DNA from: Phycisphaerales bacterium
GTDB taxonomy: Bacteria; Planctomycetota; Phycisphaerae; Tepidisphaerales; Tepidisphaeraceae
Assembly (NCBI GenBank): GCA_028291615.1
Contig: JAQGHM010000033.1
Span: 1-42,303, forward strand
DNA length: 42,303 nt
Reading direction: 5' to 3'
Part shown: positions 18,217 to 23,979 of the stretch, piece by piece
How positions within the stretch are numbered: position 1 is the first letter of the stretch
Layout of the letters: each line of letters starts with the position of its first letter
The notes under the pieces: generated by a model
Told to the model about the DNA's origin: nothing
Seen by the model: only the letters and a program-made list of their open reading frames with translations
The model's database searches: none
Program-made: the position numbers and the translations under genes

Positions 18217-20508
18217 TTGAAGAAGCAGAGGGCATTTGTAACCGCGGCAATCGCTGCGGCCGTTTCGAGTGTTTTCAGTCCGGTTTACGCCACTGACAAT
18301 GTCTGGGTTGGAACCACCAGCGATTGGAACACGGCGTCTAACTGGAGTCTGGGGCGGGTTCCGGTCAAGGTAGACGACAACGTCTTTGATGACGCAATCA
18401 TCAACTCGACAGCGATCATTCCGATTATTACCGCCGATCTGGCGGCAACGCCGCGCGACATCATCCTGGGAATCGGAGGCGGAAACTCAGGCCAGGTAAA
18501 TCACATCGCCGGCAGCGCCGCAACGGGCGCTGGCAACTGGTTCTTCATCGGACGCGACGGCGGCACCGGCACTTACAACCTGGCCGACACGACTGCCGTC
18601 GGCGGTACCCTGACCAAATTCGGCGCCGGCTCGGGCTCGATCAACGTTGGTGGACGCGTGTTTGTCGGCGGCACCGAATTCGGCGCCGCCGGCAGTGTCG
18701 GCACGCTCAACATAAATACGTCGGGTACCCTGGCCGTCAGCAACGACCTCGCCATTGGCACCGATGGCGCCACCGGCGTTATGAATATGGACGCCGGAAC
18801 CGTCACCACCGGCGGCTGGAACTTCATCGGCAAGGGAGCGAACAATCCCGGCGGCAACGGCACCCTCAACATGAGCGGTGGAACCATCACCAACGGCGGC
18901 GGCCGTACCTACATTGGATTCGGCGGTTCTGCTACCAACGTTTCCACCGGCAAACTGGTCATGAGCGGTGGCACGTACAACAACCCCGGCGACTTCTTCA
19001 GCGTCGGCGATAACAACCTCACCAGCACCGCCGCTACCCCATCCGTCAGCATGTCCGGCGGAACGATCAATTCCGCCCTGTTTACCATCGGTGGCAACCC
19101 CGATCGCGGTGGCAAGGGAATCGTTACGCTCAATGGCAACGGCGCCCTGCTCAACACCGGCGAATTCTGGGTGGGCCAGAACACCGGCAGCGAAGGCGTA
19201 TTTAACATCAGTGCCGGTACAGTGACCTCCAGCAACTGGTTTGTTATCGGCCGCAGTGGCGGCACGGGCGCCATCAACATGACTGGCGGTCAGATCACCA
19301 AAAGCGGCGGTGGAAATCTCATCGTTGGTAGCCTTTCCGGAAAGGGCACGATCACCCAGACCGCCGGCGCGATCAACACGGTCGCCGGCGGCGATACCCT
19401 TCTGGGTGAAGGCACGTCGACCGCCCTCTGGGATATCTCGGGCGGTTCGCTCACCACCAATGCATTGTTGATCGCTTGGCAGGGCGGCGTCAATGAATTC
19501 CGCGTGCGCGGCACCGGCGCCGTTACCGCCGATCATATCGAGCTGGGTGAAGGCTCGAATAACGGATCAGGAATTGTGAATCAGACCGGCGGCACCGTGA
19601 CCGCAAACCGCTGGCTCGCCGTCGGCCTCGGCTCGTCACAGCAGGCGAAATACAACCTCAGCGGCGGCACCGTGAATGCCGGCGGTCTGGAAGCCGGGGC
19701 CGATTCCCCCGGCTTGATCGCGCTCAGCGGCACCGGCGTCTTGAACGTCTCCGGAAATACCGAGGTGCCCACCCGAAACGGCGCAGGCAACCTGACGGTT
19801 TCAGGCGGCACGTTGAACACGGCCAACATCCTCATCGGCGGCCGCGACAACAACACGGCTGGCAACGTCTTCGGTTCAGGTGTGGTCAACCAGTCCGGCG
19901 GCTTGGTCAAAGTCACCACGGACGTGATCGTGCAACGGCCCAACGTCGGCACGGGCACTTACAACCTGTCGGGCGGAACGCTTTCCGTCGACGGCGTCCT
20001 CAACGCCTCGCTCGGCACATTCAGCTTCACCGGCGGACGATTGACCCGCTCCAATGCCGGCGTCATCAACTACACCGGTGACCTCCACGTCGCCAACAAG
20101 GCGGCGGGATTAAAACTTGATACCGATAAGACGTTCGCCGTCAGCGGCCTCTTTGACGTTGTCCCAGGCGTCACCTTCGACGTCACGGGCATGACAATCC
20201 CTGCGCATGCCGGTGCTGGTTTTGAAACAGGCTCGTTCCCCCTTGGCACCGATAACTCCATTCTCGGTACGTTCGATCCCTCCACGACTTCCGTCCTGGG
20301 GTTGAACAACCTGGCGAACGCAACCTTCATCTCCGAAGCCGCTGGTGAAGGCCACACCTACTCCAACACGCAGCGCGTCTATTGGGTTCAGGAATCAGCG
20401 GGACAAGTCAGCCTGCAATACAGCGTCGCCGCCGCCCCCGAACCGGGAGCCATCGCGGTTCTCGCACTCTCTGGGGTAACCATTCTGGCACGGCGACGGC
20501 GGAAGTGA
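18217..20508 (+). CDS. PEP-CTERM beta-helix repeat surface protein
   Basis: A 763-residue exported protein with a TTG start at 18217, chosen because GGAGG lies 5 bp upstream and the signal peptide KKQRAFVTAAIAAAVSSVF begins there. The body contains many degenerate repeats of about 20-25 residues built on N(M/I)SGGT(I/V)...N or Y.LSGGT..., typical of right-handed beta-helix, autotransporter-like passenger domains. The C-terminus reads PEPGAIAVLALSG, then a hydrophobic stretch, then ARRRRK: a PEP-CTERM sorting signal processed by an exosortase. It is probably exported and anchored or released at the cell surface. No exosortase is in the window. A strong intrinsic terminator follows, so the gene is probably monocistronic. 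Confidence 0.9.
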   Translation: MKKQRAFVTAAIAAAVSSVFSPVYATDNVWVGTTSDWNTASNWSLGRVPVKVDDNVFDDAIINSTAIIPIITADLAATPRDIILGIGGGNSGQVNHIAGSAATGAGNWFFIGRDGGTGTYNLADTTAVGGTLTKFGAGSGSINVGGRVFVGGTEFGAAGSVGTLNINTSGTLAVSNDLAIGTDGATGVMNMDAGTVTTGGWNFIGKGANNPGGNGTLNMSGGTITNGGGRTYIGFGGSATNVSTGKLVMSGGTYNNPGDFFSVGDNNLTSTAATPSVSMSGGTINSALFTIGGNPDRGGKGIVTLNGNGALLNTGEFWVGQNTGSEGVFNISAGTVTSSNWFVIGRSGGTGAINMTGGQITKSGGGNLIVGSLSGKGTITQTAGAINTVAGGDTLLGEGTSTALWDISGGSLTTNALLIAWQGGVNEFRVRGTGAVTADHIELGEGSNNGSGIVNQTGGTVTANRWLAVGLGSSQQAKYNLSGGTVNAGGLEAGADSPGLIALSGTGVLNVSGNTEVPTRNGAGNLTVSGGTLNTANILIGGRDNNTAGNVFGSGVVNQSGGLVKVTTDVIVQRPNVGTGTYNLSGGTLSVDGVLNASLGTFSFTGGRLTRSNAGVINYTGDLHVANKAAGLKLDTDKTFAVSGLFDVVPGVTFDVTGMTIPAHAGAGFETGSFPLGTDNSILGTFDPSTTSVLGLNNLANATFISEAAGEGHTYSNTQRVYWVQESAGQVSLQYSVAAAPEPGAIAVLALSGVTILARRRRK

Positions 20509-20532: not shown

Positions 20533-20571
20533 AGGCGTCGCCCCGTCACCCCGGGGCGACGCCTCTTTCTT
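20533..20571 (+). terminator. Strong intrinsic terminator after the PEP-CTERM gene
   Basis: A perfect 13-bp stem: AGGCGTCGCCCCG (20533-20545) and CGGGGCGACGCCT (20552-20564), with a 6-nt TCACCC loop, followed by a T-rich CTTTCTTT tail. It lies 25 bp after the PEP-CTERM stop and 44 bp before the halogenase-like start. Confidence 0.9.
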
Positions 20572-20614
20572 TGGCAAGACGTCAAGTCACGGTGTATATT
20601 TCGCGGAAGATCAG

Positions 20615-22108
20615 ATGATCAAGAACGTCCTAATCCTCGGCGCCGGTAGCGCCGGCCTCATCGCCGCCATCTCCATCAAGCGGAAAATCCCGCAACTCGC
20701 CGTCCACGTCGTGCGCAGCCCCGACATCGGCGTCATCGGCGTCGGCGAGGGCACCACGCCCAACTTCCCCAAGCACCTCTTCGATTACCTCGGCATCAGC
20801 CGCAAGCACTTTTACGCGATGGCCCAGCCGACCTGGAAGCTCGGCATCCGCTTCATCTGGGGCCCGCGCGATCACTTCGAATATGGCTTCGCCCGCCAGC
20901 TCGATTCCCACTGGTCCGACCTCCCGCGCCCCAATGGTTATTACTGCGACGAAGACTTCACTTGCAGCGACCTCACCACCGCCCTCATGGCCCACAACAA
21001 GGTCTTCGCGCGCCAGCCCGACGGCGGCGGGCCGGACATCCAGCCATGGCACGGCTTTCACATCGAAAACAAAAAACTCGTCGAGGTGCTCGAGGTCGTC
21101 GCCCGCACCGTCGGCGTCGAGTTCACCGATGCCCGCGTCAGCGGCGCCAAACGCGGGCCGCAGGGAATCTCCTCGATCATCCTCGACGACGGCCGCGAGC
21201 TCACCGCCGACTTCTTCATCGACTCCAGCGGCTTCCGCAGCGAATTGCTCGGCCGCGCACTCGAAGAGCCCTACATCAGCTTCGACAAATCCCTCTTCTG
21301 CGACCGCGCCGTCGTCGGCGGCTGGGAACGCACGGTCGAGCCCATCCTCCCGTACACGACCGCCGAAACCATGGACGCCGGCTGGGCCTGGCAGATCGAG
21401 CACGAGCATTTCATCAACCGCGGCTACGTCTTCTCATCACAGTTCACCTCCGACGACGACGCCCGCGCCGAGTTCACGCGCAAGAACCCCAAAGCGGCCA
21501 AAGACGGCCGCGTCGTCAAGTTCCGCTCCGGCCGCTACCGTCGCGGCTGGGTGGACAACGTCATCGGCATCGGCAACGCCTGCGGCTTCGTCGAGCCGCT
21601 CGAAGCCACCTCCCTCATGGTCGTCTGCAGCCAGTGCGAGACGTTCATCGATTTCCTCCTCCACACCGGCCTCACCCCCACGCCGACCATGCGCAACCTG
21701 TACAACGACATGACCGCCGGCGTGTGGGACGAGATCCGCGATTTCCTCGCGCTCCACTACAAGATCAACACCCGCCTCGACACCCCCTTCTGGCGTCATT
21801 GCCGCGAAAACACTGACGTCTCCGGCATCGCCCACCTCCTCGAGTTCTACAACGAGAACGGGCCCACCGGTTTCGCCCGCCACCTGCTCCGCCCGACCGG
21901 CAGCAACTTCGGCATCGAAGGCTTCCTCGTCATGCTCGTCGGCAACCGCGTCCCCTACCAGGGCCGCCACCAAGCCAGCGACGCCGAACGGAAAACCTGG
22001 AATAGCTACCGCGCTCAATTCGCCGCGCAAGCGCAGGCCGGCATGGACATCCGCGAAGCCCTCGCCTACATCCGCCAACCCGGCTGGCGCTGGTTCGCCG
22101 AATCCTGA
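20615..22108 (+). CDS. Flavin-dependent tryptophan halogenase-like protein
   Basis: A 497-residue FAD-dependent halogenase-family protein. The FAD-binding motif is LILGAGSAGLIAA (7-19), followed by IGVGEGTTPNFPKHLF, matching the family GVGEAT.P segment. The catalytic lysine equivalent to Lys79 of PrnA/RebH is K75 in PTWKLGIRF. The NACGFVEPLEATSL loop keeps the glutamate of the EPLE(S) motif. The usual WxWxIP signature reads WAWQIE (257-262), with Glu in place of Pro. Family enzymes use FADH2, O2 and chloride or bromide to halogenate indoles or phenols; no flavin reductase is nearby. GGAAG precedes the ATG. Substrate and even halogenation are uncertain. Confidence 0.85.
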   Translation: MIKNVLILGAGSAGLIAAISIKRKIPQLAVHVVRSPDIGVIGVGEGTTPNFPKHLFDYLGISRKHFYAMAQPTWKLGIRFIWGPRDHFEYGFARQLDSHWSDLPRPNGYYCDEDFTCSDLTTALMAHNKVFARQPDGGGPDIQPWHGFHIENKKLVEVLEVVARTVGVEFTDARVSGAKRGPQGISSIILDDGRELTADFFIDSSGFRSELLGRALEEPYISFDKSLFCDRAVVGGWERTVEPILPYTTAETMDAGWAWQIEHEHFINRGYVFSSQFTSDDDARAEFTRKNPKAAKDGRVVKFRSGRYRRGWVDNVIGIGNACGFVEPLEATSLMVVCSQCETFIDFLLHTGLTPTPTMRNLYNDMTAGVWDEIRDFLALHYKINTRLDTPFWRHCRENTDVSGIAHLLEFYNENGPTGFARHLLRPTGSNFGIEGFLVMLVGNRVPYQGRHQASDAERKTWNSYRAQFAAQAQAGMDIREALAYIRQPGWRWFAES

Positions 22109-22160
22109 CGGCATGCTGCGCTGCTGTTGGTGCTGACGAGATGTGCTGCTTTGCCTACCA

Positions 22161-22180
22161 TCGGCCTCCCGCGAGGCCGA
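22161..22180 (+). promoter_or_regulatory. Hairpin over the ribosome binding site of the ST7-like gene
   Basis: TCGGCCT (22161-22167) and AGGCCGA (22174-22180) form a perfect 7-bp stem with a 6-nt loop. The 3' arm contains the GAGG-like ribosome binding region and its last base is the A of the proposed ATG, so folding would hide the start. Confidence 0.4.
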
Positions 22181-23979
22181 TGACCAATCCCGATTTTGAA
22201 ACATACCGACTGCTCCCGCAGGAAACCGACCCCGAAGAGTTTTGGATCGTCGCCATCCTGCGCATGCCCAGTTGGATTGACGAGCCGCCCCGTCCTCCGT
22301 TCCGGCCATACGCCGCCCTGATCCTCACCAAGAGTCTGGGCATCCACCTGAGCAAGATGGCCGCCGACCGCGCAGAGGCGACCGCGATGGTGGTGCCCGC
22401 GCTTGTCCAGTTTGCAACCGGCGCCAAGGTGCGCGTCCGCCCCGCCCGGATCGCTACCAACGACCCCACCCTCGAGCGGCACCTCTGCGACGCGCTGGGC
22501 GACCTGGTTGCAGGGGTGAAGACGGTGGCCGACCTTCCGCCGCTCGACGCGGTAAAGCAACAACTGGCGCGCATGCCCGGATCCGCCGGCATCCCGGATG
22601 CTCTGTCGGTTCCCGGCGTAACCCGCGAGGACCTCCGCGCGCTCGCCCGCGCCGCCGCCGACTTCCATCGCGCCGCGCCGTGGCGTCACCTGAACGATCA
22701 TGACCTGCTTCGCGTCGATTCGCCCCCCTCGCCCGCGGGTCAAAAATACGCAGTGGTCATGGGCGCAGGCGGTGAGACATTCGGACTCGCGTTCTACGCC
22801 TCGCTCGAACGATACAAGCTCACCATGGAGGGTACCGGCGACGAGACCGAGTTTCTCCGCGCGCCCGAACCGCTCTTTTCGATGATCTTCAGTCCAGCCA
22901 TGGCGATCAGCTTCGGCGATCACGATCTTTGGGAAGACGAGAAGTTCCCACTCGCCACCCCCGAGGCCTATCCCTTCGCCGCCTTTTTCGATGCGGCGAC
23001 CGACGCCGTCGTCAGGCCCAATGCCGCTTTACTGAATCACACCCAGGCGATCCTCGCCGCCCTCGCCCTGACCACCGAGCAGGAGATGGACGCCGGCCGC
23101 TGGAGGAAGACCGTCCCAACCCTGGACGGCCCCGTCGAATACACCCTGACGATTCCCGCCCTGCTCAAGTCGCAGAAAAAGAAGACGACGAAAAAGGCAT
23201 GGCCCAGCCCGATTAATAATCCCCGCGCATCGCAGGACCGCGCCGAGGAACTGTTCGGCCAGGCGATCGGCGCCCGCGGCCGGCGGCAGATTCAACTCGC
23301 TCGCCAGGTGCTGGAACTGGACCCCGATAACGCCGACGCGCTGGGAATCCTCGCCCGCCGCGCCGGTGACCCCGTGCGCCGACTCGAGCTTTACGCACAG
23401 GCCGTTGACGCGGGTCGCCGCGCGATCGGCGAGTCATTCGATTTACTGCTCGGTCACTTCTGGCTTGCTGTCTCGACCCGCCCGTACTTGCGCGCCCGCG
23501 TCGGCCTGGCGATGGCGCTGCGCGATCTCGGCCGCCACGCCGAGACGCTCGAACACCTGCTCGACATGCTCCGCCTCAACCCCAACGACAACCAGGGAAT
23601 CCGCGACCTGGTCCCCGCCACCCTGCTCGCCCTCGGCCGCGACCGCGAACTGCTCGATTTCACCACAACCTATGGCCGCCACAGCGCCATCCCCGCCTAC
23701 GCCACCGCGCTCGCCAACTTTCGCATCGAGGGCAACTCCGCCGCCGCCCGCAAGAGTTTATCCCACGCCGTCGCCCTTAATCGCCATGTCCCCCACCACC
23801 TGGCGCGCGGCACGCGCCCCGTGCCCGAATCCGACTTCGGCTATTCCCCGGGCCAGCCCAGCGAGGCGGCTTTCTGCATCGAAGAGATCGGCCCTGCCTG
23901 GCGTGCCACCCCCGGCGCCCTCCATTGGATCGCCGCCGCAACGCCCCCGCCCGCCACGCGCACGCGCCGACGCCGCTGA
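22180..23979 (+). CDS. ST7-like repeat protein with N-terminal domain of unknown function
   Basis: A 599-residue cytoplasmic protein. The ATG at 22180 is preceded by GCGAGG; an in-frame ATG at 22141 has no ribosome binding site. Residues about 1-330 form a region of unknown function (AALILTKSLGIHLSK, LFSMIFSPAMAISFGDHDLW). A Lys-rich linker (KSQKKKTTKKAWP) leads to a C-terminal region with TPR-like helices: LARQVLELDPDNADAL and ARVGLAMALRDLGRHAETLE, followed by MLRLNPNDNQGIRDL, the latter characteristic of ST7-family domains. Such proteins are common in planctomycetes and proteobacteria but lack an assigned role. Its stop lies 32 bp before the peptidase start, so the two are probably cotranscribed. 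Confidence 0.75.
   Translation: MTNPDFETYRLLPQETDPEEFWIVAILRMPSWIDEPPRPPFRPYAALILTKSLGIHLSKMAADRAEATAMVVPALVQFATGAKVRVRPARIATNDPTLERHLCDALGDLVAGVKTVADLPPLDAVKQQLARMPGSAGIPDALSVPGVTREDLRALARAAADFHRAAPWRHLNDHDLLRVDSPPSPAGQKYAVVMGAGGETFGLAFYASLERYKLTMEGTGDETEFLRAPEPLFSMIFSPAMAISFGDHDLWEDEKFPLATPEAYPFAAFFDAATDAVVRPNAALLNHTQAILAALALTTEQEMDAGRWRKTVPTLDGPVEYTLTIPALLKSQKKKTTKKAWPSPINNPRASQDRAEELFGQAIGARGRRQIQLARQVLELDPDNADALGILARRAGDPVRRLELYAQAVDAGRRAIGESFDLLLGHFWLAVSTRPYLRARVGLAMALRDLGRHAETLEHLLDMLRLNPNDNQGIRDLVPATLLALGRDRELLDFTTTYGRHSAIPAYATALANFRIEGNSAAARKSLSHAVALNRHVPHHLARGTRPVPESDFGYSPGQPSEAAFCIEEIGPAWRATPGALHWIAAATPPPATRTRRRR

Follow-up and report, generated by a model that had tools for sequence, protein, structure and literature searches.

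MibH (PDB 5UAO), the tryptophan 5-halogenase of the lanthipeptide NAI-107, is described as chlorinating a Trp of the finished lanthipeptide, and SrpI, the C-terminal Trp of its own precursor (PMC12518702, PMC12615548). ChlH, the chlorolassin halogenase, is reported to be 58% identical to MibH and to chlorinate linear precursor peptides and also an internal Trp of an unrelated protein of 1054 aa (PMC12518702). The enzymatic halogenation of ribosomal polypeptides presented as known for these enzymes is that of small RiPP peptides (PMC12615548). Trp residues of a partner protein are also modified by the flavoprotein maturases QhpG, LodB and GoxB, for which CmlS is given as the nearest structure (PMC7876137). 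The core motif of the halogenases is written WxWxI(P) in one source (PMC12871659), the function of the WxWxIP residues is called unclear in a review (PMC10696468), and the Trp4 motif is given as the mark of halogenases of free Trp (PMC8269204). A sponge survey touches briefly on halogenases of Verrucomicrobiota (PMC6644159). A search of full-text literature, with the subscription literature mostly outside its scope, returned no paper joining a tryptophan halogenase and PEP-CTERM, the co-mentions of PEP-CTERM and a halogenase being in unrelated contexts; a search of the same scope for protein halogenation returned none.

The halogenase gene analysed here lies in a window of 42,303 bp, the whole stretch of DNA studied, from a Phycisphaerales bacterium (Table 1). 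Its product matched the Trp_halogenase family PF04820 (E = 8.8e-98; 328 bits, with a cut-off of 21) over profile positions 1-444 of 458. An earlier note on this DNA had placed an FAD site, K75 and a WAWQIE motif in the protein, and all three were found where it had claimed them. GWAWQIE spans residues 256-262 of the protein; by alignment to PrnA, W257 and W259 are equivalent to W272 and W274, and E262 takes the place of P277, the Pro of WxWxIP; the reported alteration of this motif is therefore real. In the AlphaFold model (mean pLDDT of 92.5), the stretch 256-262 is a strand whose last residue is E262. The motif Fx.Px.Sx.G is changed as well, EPLEATS having Ala in place of its Ser and Ser in place of its Gly.

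Table 1. Features of the halogenase gene and its surroundings, in positions of the window
Feature	Position	Strand	Remarks
Putative partner/substrate, exported repeat protein with PEP-CTERM	18217..20508	+	763 aa, TTG start as listed
PEP-CTERM sorting signal	20434..20505	+	partner residues 740-763
Terminator-like stem-loop	20533..20564	+	13 pairs, between partner and halogenase
Sigma-70-like promoter match	20571..20600	+	just upstream of halogenase; consensus match only
MibH-related flavin-dependent halogenase homologue, WxWxI[E/D]H[E/D] clade	20615..22108	+	497 aa, ATG start
GxGxxG FAD-binding motif	20639..20656	+	halogenase residues 9-14 (G9-G14)
K75 codon	20837..20839	+	catalytic K79 of PrnA by alignment
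WAWQIEHE	21383..21406	+	residues 257-264, replaces WxWxIP
EPLEATS	21593..21613	+	residues 327-333; catalytic Glu E330 (PrnA E346) retained

When solved structures were searched by sequence, MibH scored 304 bits and the others 188.5 at most, a clear lead, and a clade member from Frankia also ranked MibH first (236.5 versus 191.7 bits). Foldseek with the model of the halogenase again gave MibH as the top match (E = 4.9e-51, 36% identity), followed by BrvH, Xcc4156 and PyrH. In VIA, MibH reached a Z of 44.6 with PyrH close behind at 43.1, so that the fold alone is weak at singling out MibH. The earlier note had left the choice between an unusual halogenase and a flavoprotein with another role. 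The first is favoured by the retained catalytic Lys and Glu and by MibH as the nearest structure, and membership of the flavin-dependent halogenase class is well supported, with activity and substrate as predictions; the second is still conceivable, since changes in two tunnel motifs run through the whole clade to which the protein belongs.

The altered motif is no oddity of this one protein but proved to be the fixed signature of that whole clade, a point missed in the same note. A maximum-likelihood tree built from 79 rows united the proteins with WxWxI[E/D] in a single group of 64 rows with a support of 99/99 (two of these are degenerate homologues, one of them without the motif). The phylogeny that had been proposed as a check placed the window protein in this clade, with BrvH and 9LUQ on a separate branch with WxWxIP and PrnA also elsewhere. 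Adjoining the clade were MibH and a Streptomyces protein encoded beside an NRPS gene, with moderate support (94/54 on the branch uniting MibH, L090 and the clade). One haloarchaeal row with WFWQID, from a plasmid of Haloarcula marina (L099), fell outside the group; this distant homologue lacks the EPLE motif and sits on a very long branch, and its loss of the Pro was apparently independent of the clade.

Among 62 clade rows, W257, W259, I261, H263 and E330 were invariant (62/62 each), so that the WxWxI core was kept by all of them; the catalytic Lys was K in the 61 rows with a letter at that position, and GxGxxG was likewise invariant wherever a row had letters to compare. At position 260, 58 rows have Q and four have R; at position 262, 58 have E and four have D (Pro in 13 of 14 reference rows); and at position 264, 61 have E and one has D. 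In Fx.Px.Sx.G, F was present in 62/62 and P in 61/62, Ser had changed to Ala in 58/62 and Gly was replaced in 61/62, this Gly being absent from BrvH too. The signature of the clade is thus WxWxI[E/D]H[E/D] with EPLEA. Decay of the motif, as another reading of WAWQIE, was ruled out by its conservation across the clade. Identity as a free-Trp halogenase was also discarded, since no Trp4 motif YYx13NYY occurs in any of the 64 WxWxI[ED] rows; a Burkholderia protein that adjoins PrnA in the tree (L101) does have it.

This large, well-supported and little-studied clade consists for the most part of verrucomicrobial proteins, together with some from planctomycetes. One genome was scanned for each species, which yielded 45 halogenase loci, a set that leans towards the motif because six peptide patterns, WAWQIEHE among them, were used. 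Protein searches independent of the motif agreed with this set, giving matches in 4 of 61 genomes (the own genome included) and, within the phylum, in 12 of 392, many of them weak. When six relative-bearing genomes were searched with PF04820, several full-length copies were found in four and one in each of the other two. Arrays were observed in a 23-kb contig of a Prosthecobacter MAG (L029 and L033), with six full-length WAWQIE-type copies, and in a Chthoniobacteraceae MAG (L034), with two; they also hold homologues of about 30% identity, with WQWQIP in L029 and L034 and without WxWxI in L033. In two Haloferula genomes (L139 in G446, L141 in G447), a WCWQIE halogenase is followed immediately by a degenerate PF04820 homologue and then by a protein of 126-128 aa, possibly an enzyme with its pseudo-enzyme partner.

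The best relatives of the window halogenase were verrucomicrobial, with up to 72% identity, and planctomycetes of the same family reached 60% at most. As the RpoB and 16S of the window genome itself gave no match, its phylum was assigned through the RpoB sequences of three relatives, one from the same family and two from the same class. These shared 61-63% identity with the RpoB of a named Planctomycetota MAG and 49-52% with those of three Verrucomicrobiota genomes; on these sequences, the window genome falls with Planctomycetota. The contig as a contaminant was ruled out, the M42 peptidase gene being matched at 64-83% identity in 11 of 25 same-family genomes. Because the top relatives are verrucomicrobial and the contig is native to a planctomycete, the halogenase gene probably crossed between phyla. 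A search for an empty site around the M42 gene was uninformative, as its flanks are not conserved in the relatives.

The earlier note had also described a PEP-CTERM gene followed by a terminator ahead of the halogenase, and both were recovered, the protein matching TIGR02595 with 20.2 bits (cut-off of 16). This neighbour, which carries more weight than the note had allowed, is probably the most telling feature of the locus. Three matches to the exosortase family PF09721 were found in the own genome. The middle part of the partner was all-beta in its model (mean pLDDT of 74). Against solved structures, this model gave no match at E ≤ 0.001, the best (0.015) being a beta-helical autotransporter passenger, and three viral models at E ≤ 0.001 had TM-scores of 0.24 at most and were uninformative.

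The pair was also present in two Chthoniobacteraceae loci, L015 and L016. When the available stretches of both were compared with the 130 window ORFs of at least 100 aa, the PEP-CTERM gene and the halogenase were the only matches (opposite-strand shadow ORFs of the pair included), with the exception of the contig-end ORF 1-528. The latter was matched weakly (28% across 123 aa), and its distance to the halogenase is 20 kb in the window and 8 kb in L015. A two-gene unit therefore recurs in another phylum with different flanks. The window partner aligned over its whole length with those of L015 and L016 (identity of 54 and 55% across the aligned columns), and of its 11 Trp residues 9 are invariant across the three proteins.

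Regarding the gap between both genes, a 2-kb stretch contained three terminator-like matches, compared to 1.8 in shuffles, and one promoter-like match, compared to 0.3. A clean strong hairpin, judged by eye and without a shuffled control, was seen in the gap of 10 of 12 upstream pairs folded (the window and 9 of 11 others), those of L016 and L051 being the exceptions. The halogenase might either have a transcript of its own or be produced in smaller amounts than the structural protein. The statement that no flavin reductase or biosynthetic gene adjoins the halogenase also held: no flavin reductase, natural-product or RiPP enzyme was detected among the 29 window ORFs scanned with Pfam, and one PF01613 flavin reductase was found in the genome, on another contig. 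Directly downstream of the halogenase, a 612-aa protein with DUF6930 and DUF7309 is encoded (22141-23979), and a fusion of type I 3-dehydroquinase and shikimate dehydrogenase is encoded at 562-2127.

A large exported-looking protein was the immediate neighbour (within 700 bp) at 30 of 63 clade loci, compared to 21 of 223 control genes taken from the same loci (p = 1.4e-10), and for PEP-CTERM proteins the values were 15/63 and 12/223 (p = 6e-5). Exported-looking means here low charge, richness in G/N/T/S and at least 250 aa, or a PEP-CTERM pattern, and a greedy longest-ORF script, rather than a trained gene finder, was used to call the neighbours. With near-copies dropped, the neighbour was present at 26 of 57 clade loci, and it was also found for five of ten further clade copies that were retrieved once the idea existed (p = 0.002). 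Haloferula sp. BvORR071 (L140) and Luteolibacter pohnpeiensis KCTC 22041 (L045) are among the bacteria in which a clade member adjoins such a protein. The 63-locus count omits seven of the 70 halogenase rows (L083, L084, L134, L139b, L141b, L059 and L078), which lie outside the clade, are degenerate or are fragments, and retains the contig-end loci L023, L047, L052 and L056; five more full-length WAWQIE copies lie outside it (three in L033 and one each in L029 and L034) and would make it 30/68 if neighbourless.

By the composition rule, 33 of the 63 clade loci had no exported-looking neighbour, or 31 if L044, where the neighbour is just below the cut-off, and L082, where it is a 223-aa PEP-CTERM protein, are added. 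Among the nine planctomycete members outside the window, a neighbour was found at L081 only, or at L081 and L082, and none at the same-family loci L074-L077. Two verrucomicrobial genomes, G444 and G445, hold six clade copies each, 8 of the 12 adjoining a PEP-CTERM gene; the p value (2.5e-11 if the chance rate is taken as 2.2%, 1.6e-8 if it is taken as 5%) does not come from a random draw, because these genomes were picked as holders of the top relatives of the window gene. PEP-CTERM matches at E up to 1 amounted to only 70 in G444 and 38 in G445, with at most 150 candidates scored in each genome.

The neighbours belong to unrelated families. Those scanned, 12 different ones, included beta-strand/T5SS-type repeats with PEP-CTERM, PATR repeats, laminin-G with TSP3 repeats, and lamin-tail with CotH. 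All four gene orders of halogenase and neighbour occur; the gaps are short and often co-directional, and at L136 and L044 stop and start overlap by 4 bp. On the tree, with L044 and L082 labelled by hand as having a neighbour, the neighbour label required 18 changes (shuffled mean of 21), at least 10 of them forced by strong branches, and was hardly clustered, 54 of 500 shuffles being as low; therefore, the pairing was gained and lost many times or the neighbours were shuffled within islands. Shared accessory islands would also give so little clustering, and they could account for some or even the whole of the pattern. Comparison of 35 neighbours with 32 other exported-looking proteins revealed no enrichment in Trp or Tyr, the only differences being lower Cys and Pro, and no shared target motif or common Trp context was found among the neighbours.

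Two halogenases from other branches, L134 in G444 (WMWQIP) and L084 in G135 (WQWRIP), also adjoin large exported-looking proteins, one of them a PEP-CTERM protein of 2358 aa, and the association may extend beyond the clade. At L019/L020/L030, a single exported protein appears to be flanked by two different halogenases: L030 comes from the MAG that also holds L019, and the fragment upstream of it shares 98% identity with the C-terminus of the downstream partner of L020; beyond that partner, L020 has a second halogenase fragment.

As a tentative proposal, somewhat short of an even chance, the enzyme would be a halogenase like MibH and ChlH that modifies aromatic residues of co-encoded exported proteins prior to secretion. 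A protein-directed halogenase is the simplest reading because the protein is a relative of MibH, lacks the free-Trp motif and is encoded beside exported proteins instead of RiPP genes. It would act in the cytoplasm as a two-component flavin-dependent enzyme, akin to the peptide-tryptophan halogenases MibH and ChlH, with FADH2 presumably supplied by a flavin reductase encoded elsewhere in the genome, for which the PF01613 protein is a candidate. FADH2, O2 and halide would give hypohalous acid, which would move through the tunnel to K75/E330 and there halogenate the side chain of an aromatic residue, most probably Trp. The most probable substrate would be the adjoining exported surface protein, in this case the PEP-CTERM repeat protein of 763 aa, which would be modified in its unfolded state, ahead of Sec/exosortase export. 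We infer halogenation itself, the neighbour as substrate and the residue modified. The frequent position of clade members beside such genes suggests that the bacteria carrying them may chlorinate or brominate their own surface proteins.

A wider form, which we regard as doubtful, is that Verrucomicrobiota and some Planctomycetota have a dedicated family of protein halogenases with an acidic-His-acidic WxWxIEHE active site, at least six clade copies in some genomes, and many members paired with a large exported surface protein that is halogenated before secretion. Several results count against the protein-directed reading: half of the loci are neighbourless, those of the same-family planctomycetes L074-L077 among them, the neighbour label is hardly clustered on the tree, the neighbours are unrelated, share no target motif and are not enriched in Trp or Tyr, a terminator-like hairpin separates both genes, the sister position of MibH has a support of 94/54, and the Ser and Gly of Fx.Px.Sx.G are changed.

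Some of these results would be expected if the protein were a true halogenase of a diffusible small aromatic (an indole, a phenol, a pigment or a signal) and its proximity to PEP-CTERM genes reflected shared variable accessory islands. We consider this rather unlikely. It accommodates the half of the loci without an exported neighbour, the scattering of the label on the tree, the lack of relationship among the neighbours and the 32 other exported-looking proteins elsewhere in the same loci, and metagenomic halogenases without Trp4 have been reported with indole yields (PMC8269204). However, it leaves aside the short, often co-directional gaps with two 4-bp overlaps, the recurrence of the window pair in another phylum minus its flanks, and the control genes of the same loci, just 21 of 223 of which adjoin such proteins.

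The changes in WxWxIP and Fx.Px.Sx.G could otherwise indicate a protein-tryptophan monooxygenase like QhpG, LodB or GoxB, the peroxyflavin of which would hydroxylate a Trp of the neighbour without any hypohalous acid. Such a hydroxylating role, improbable in our opinion, keeps some weight because WxWxIP has been proposed to prevent monooxygenation (PMC10696468, PMC8407142). QhpG is reported to dihydroxylate peptidyl Trp (PMC7876137) and was the best NCBIfam match of the window protein, though far sub-threshold, with 37.1 bits for an equivalog cut-off of 240. The cut-offs of LodB (20.5 versus 400 bits) and GoxB (17.1 versus 400 bits) were missed as well, and the failure to reach any of these cut-offs of characterised non-halogenating relatives also favours an unusual halogenase. 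Against hydroxylation also speak both Trp of WxWxI, K75 and E330, which are invariant, and the top-ranked structures, which are halogenases. Finally, a maker of free hypohalous acid as an oxidant or antimicrobial, with no dedicated substrate, would fit the retained catalytic residues and the missing free-Trp motif, but is very improbable given the repeated pairing with exported proteins and the presence in one genome of at least six clade paralogues, which argue for distinct substrates.

If the protein-directed reading is true, bacteria would have a protein modification of a new kind, the halogenation of large structural surface proteins. It could be used to label proteins, and it would point to a role for many PF04820 genes that are orphans in environmental bacteria. 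This clade moreover provides a natural experiment on WxWxIP, the Pro having been replaced by an acidic residue in 62/62 rows while the catalytic residues stay.

Among the known systems, the free-tryptophan halogenases PrnA, RebH, PyrH and Thal have a fold like that of the window protein (VIA Z of 39-43), and the catalytic residues of PrnA are the same; the clade differs from them in lacking both the Trp4 motif and the Pro of WxWxIP. The QhpG, LodB and GoxB maturases differ from the window protein in that their similarity to it is sub-threshold only. In one of seven plasmid or phage records (one of the seven being unannotated), a Sphingomonas locus (L098), tandem halogenase copies adjoin a TonB-dependent receptor, so the pairing of halogenases with envelope proteins may not be unique to the clade. 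The open site of BrvH has been likened to that of MibH (PMC5945002). MibH itself is 36% identical to the window protein over the whole length and shares with it the catalytic Lys and Glu, and the MibH stretch compared is also without the Trp4 pattern. It has WCWTIP and EPLESSG where the window protein has WAWQIEHE and EPLEATS, and it belongs to a RiPP cluster, whereas no RiPP enzyme was found in the 29 window ORFs scanned with Pfam. ChlH, likened here from its description, belongs to a lasso-peptide cluster that includes a dedicated flavin reductase, ChlR, unlike the window gene, but its reported activity on a linear polypeptide is the one proposed for the window enzyme.
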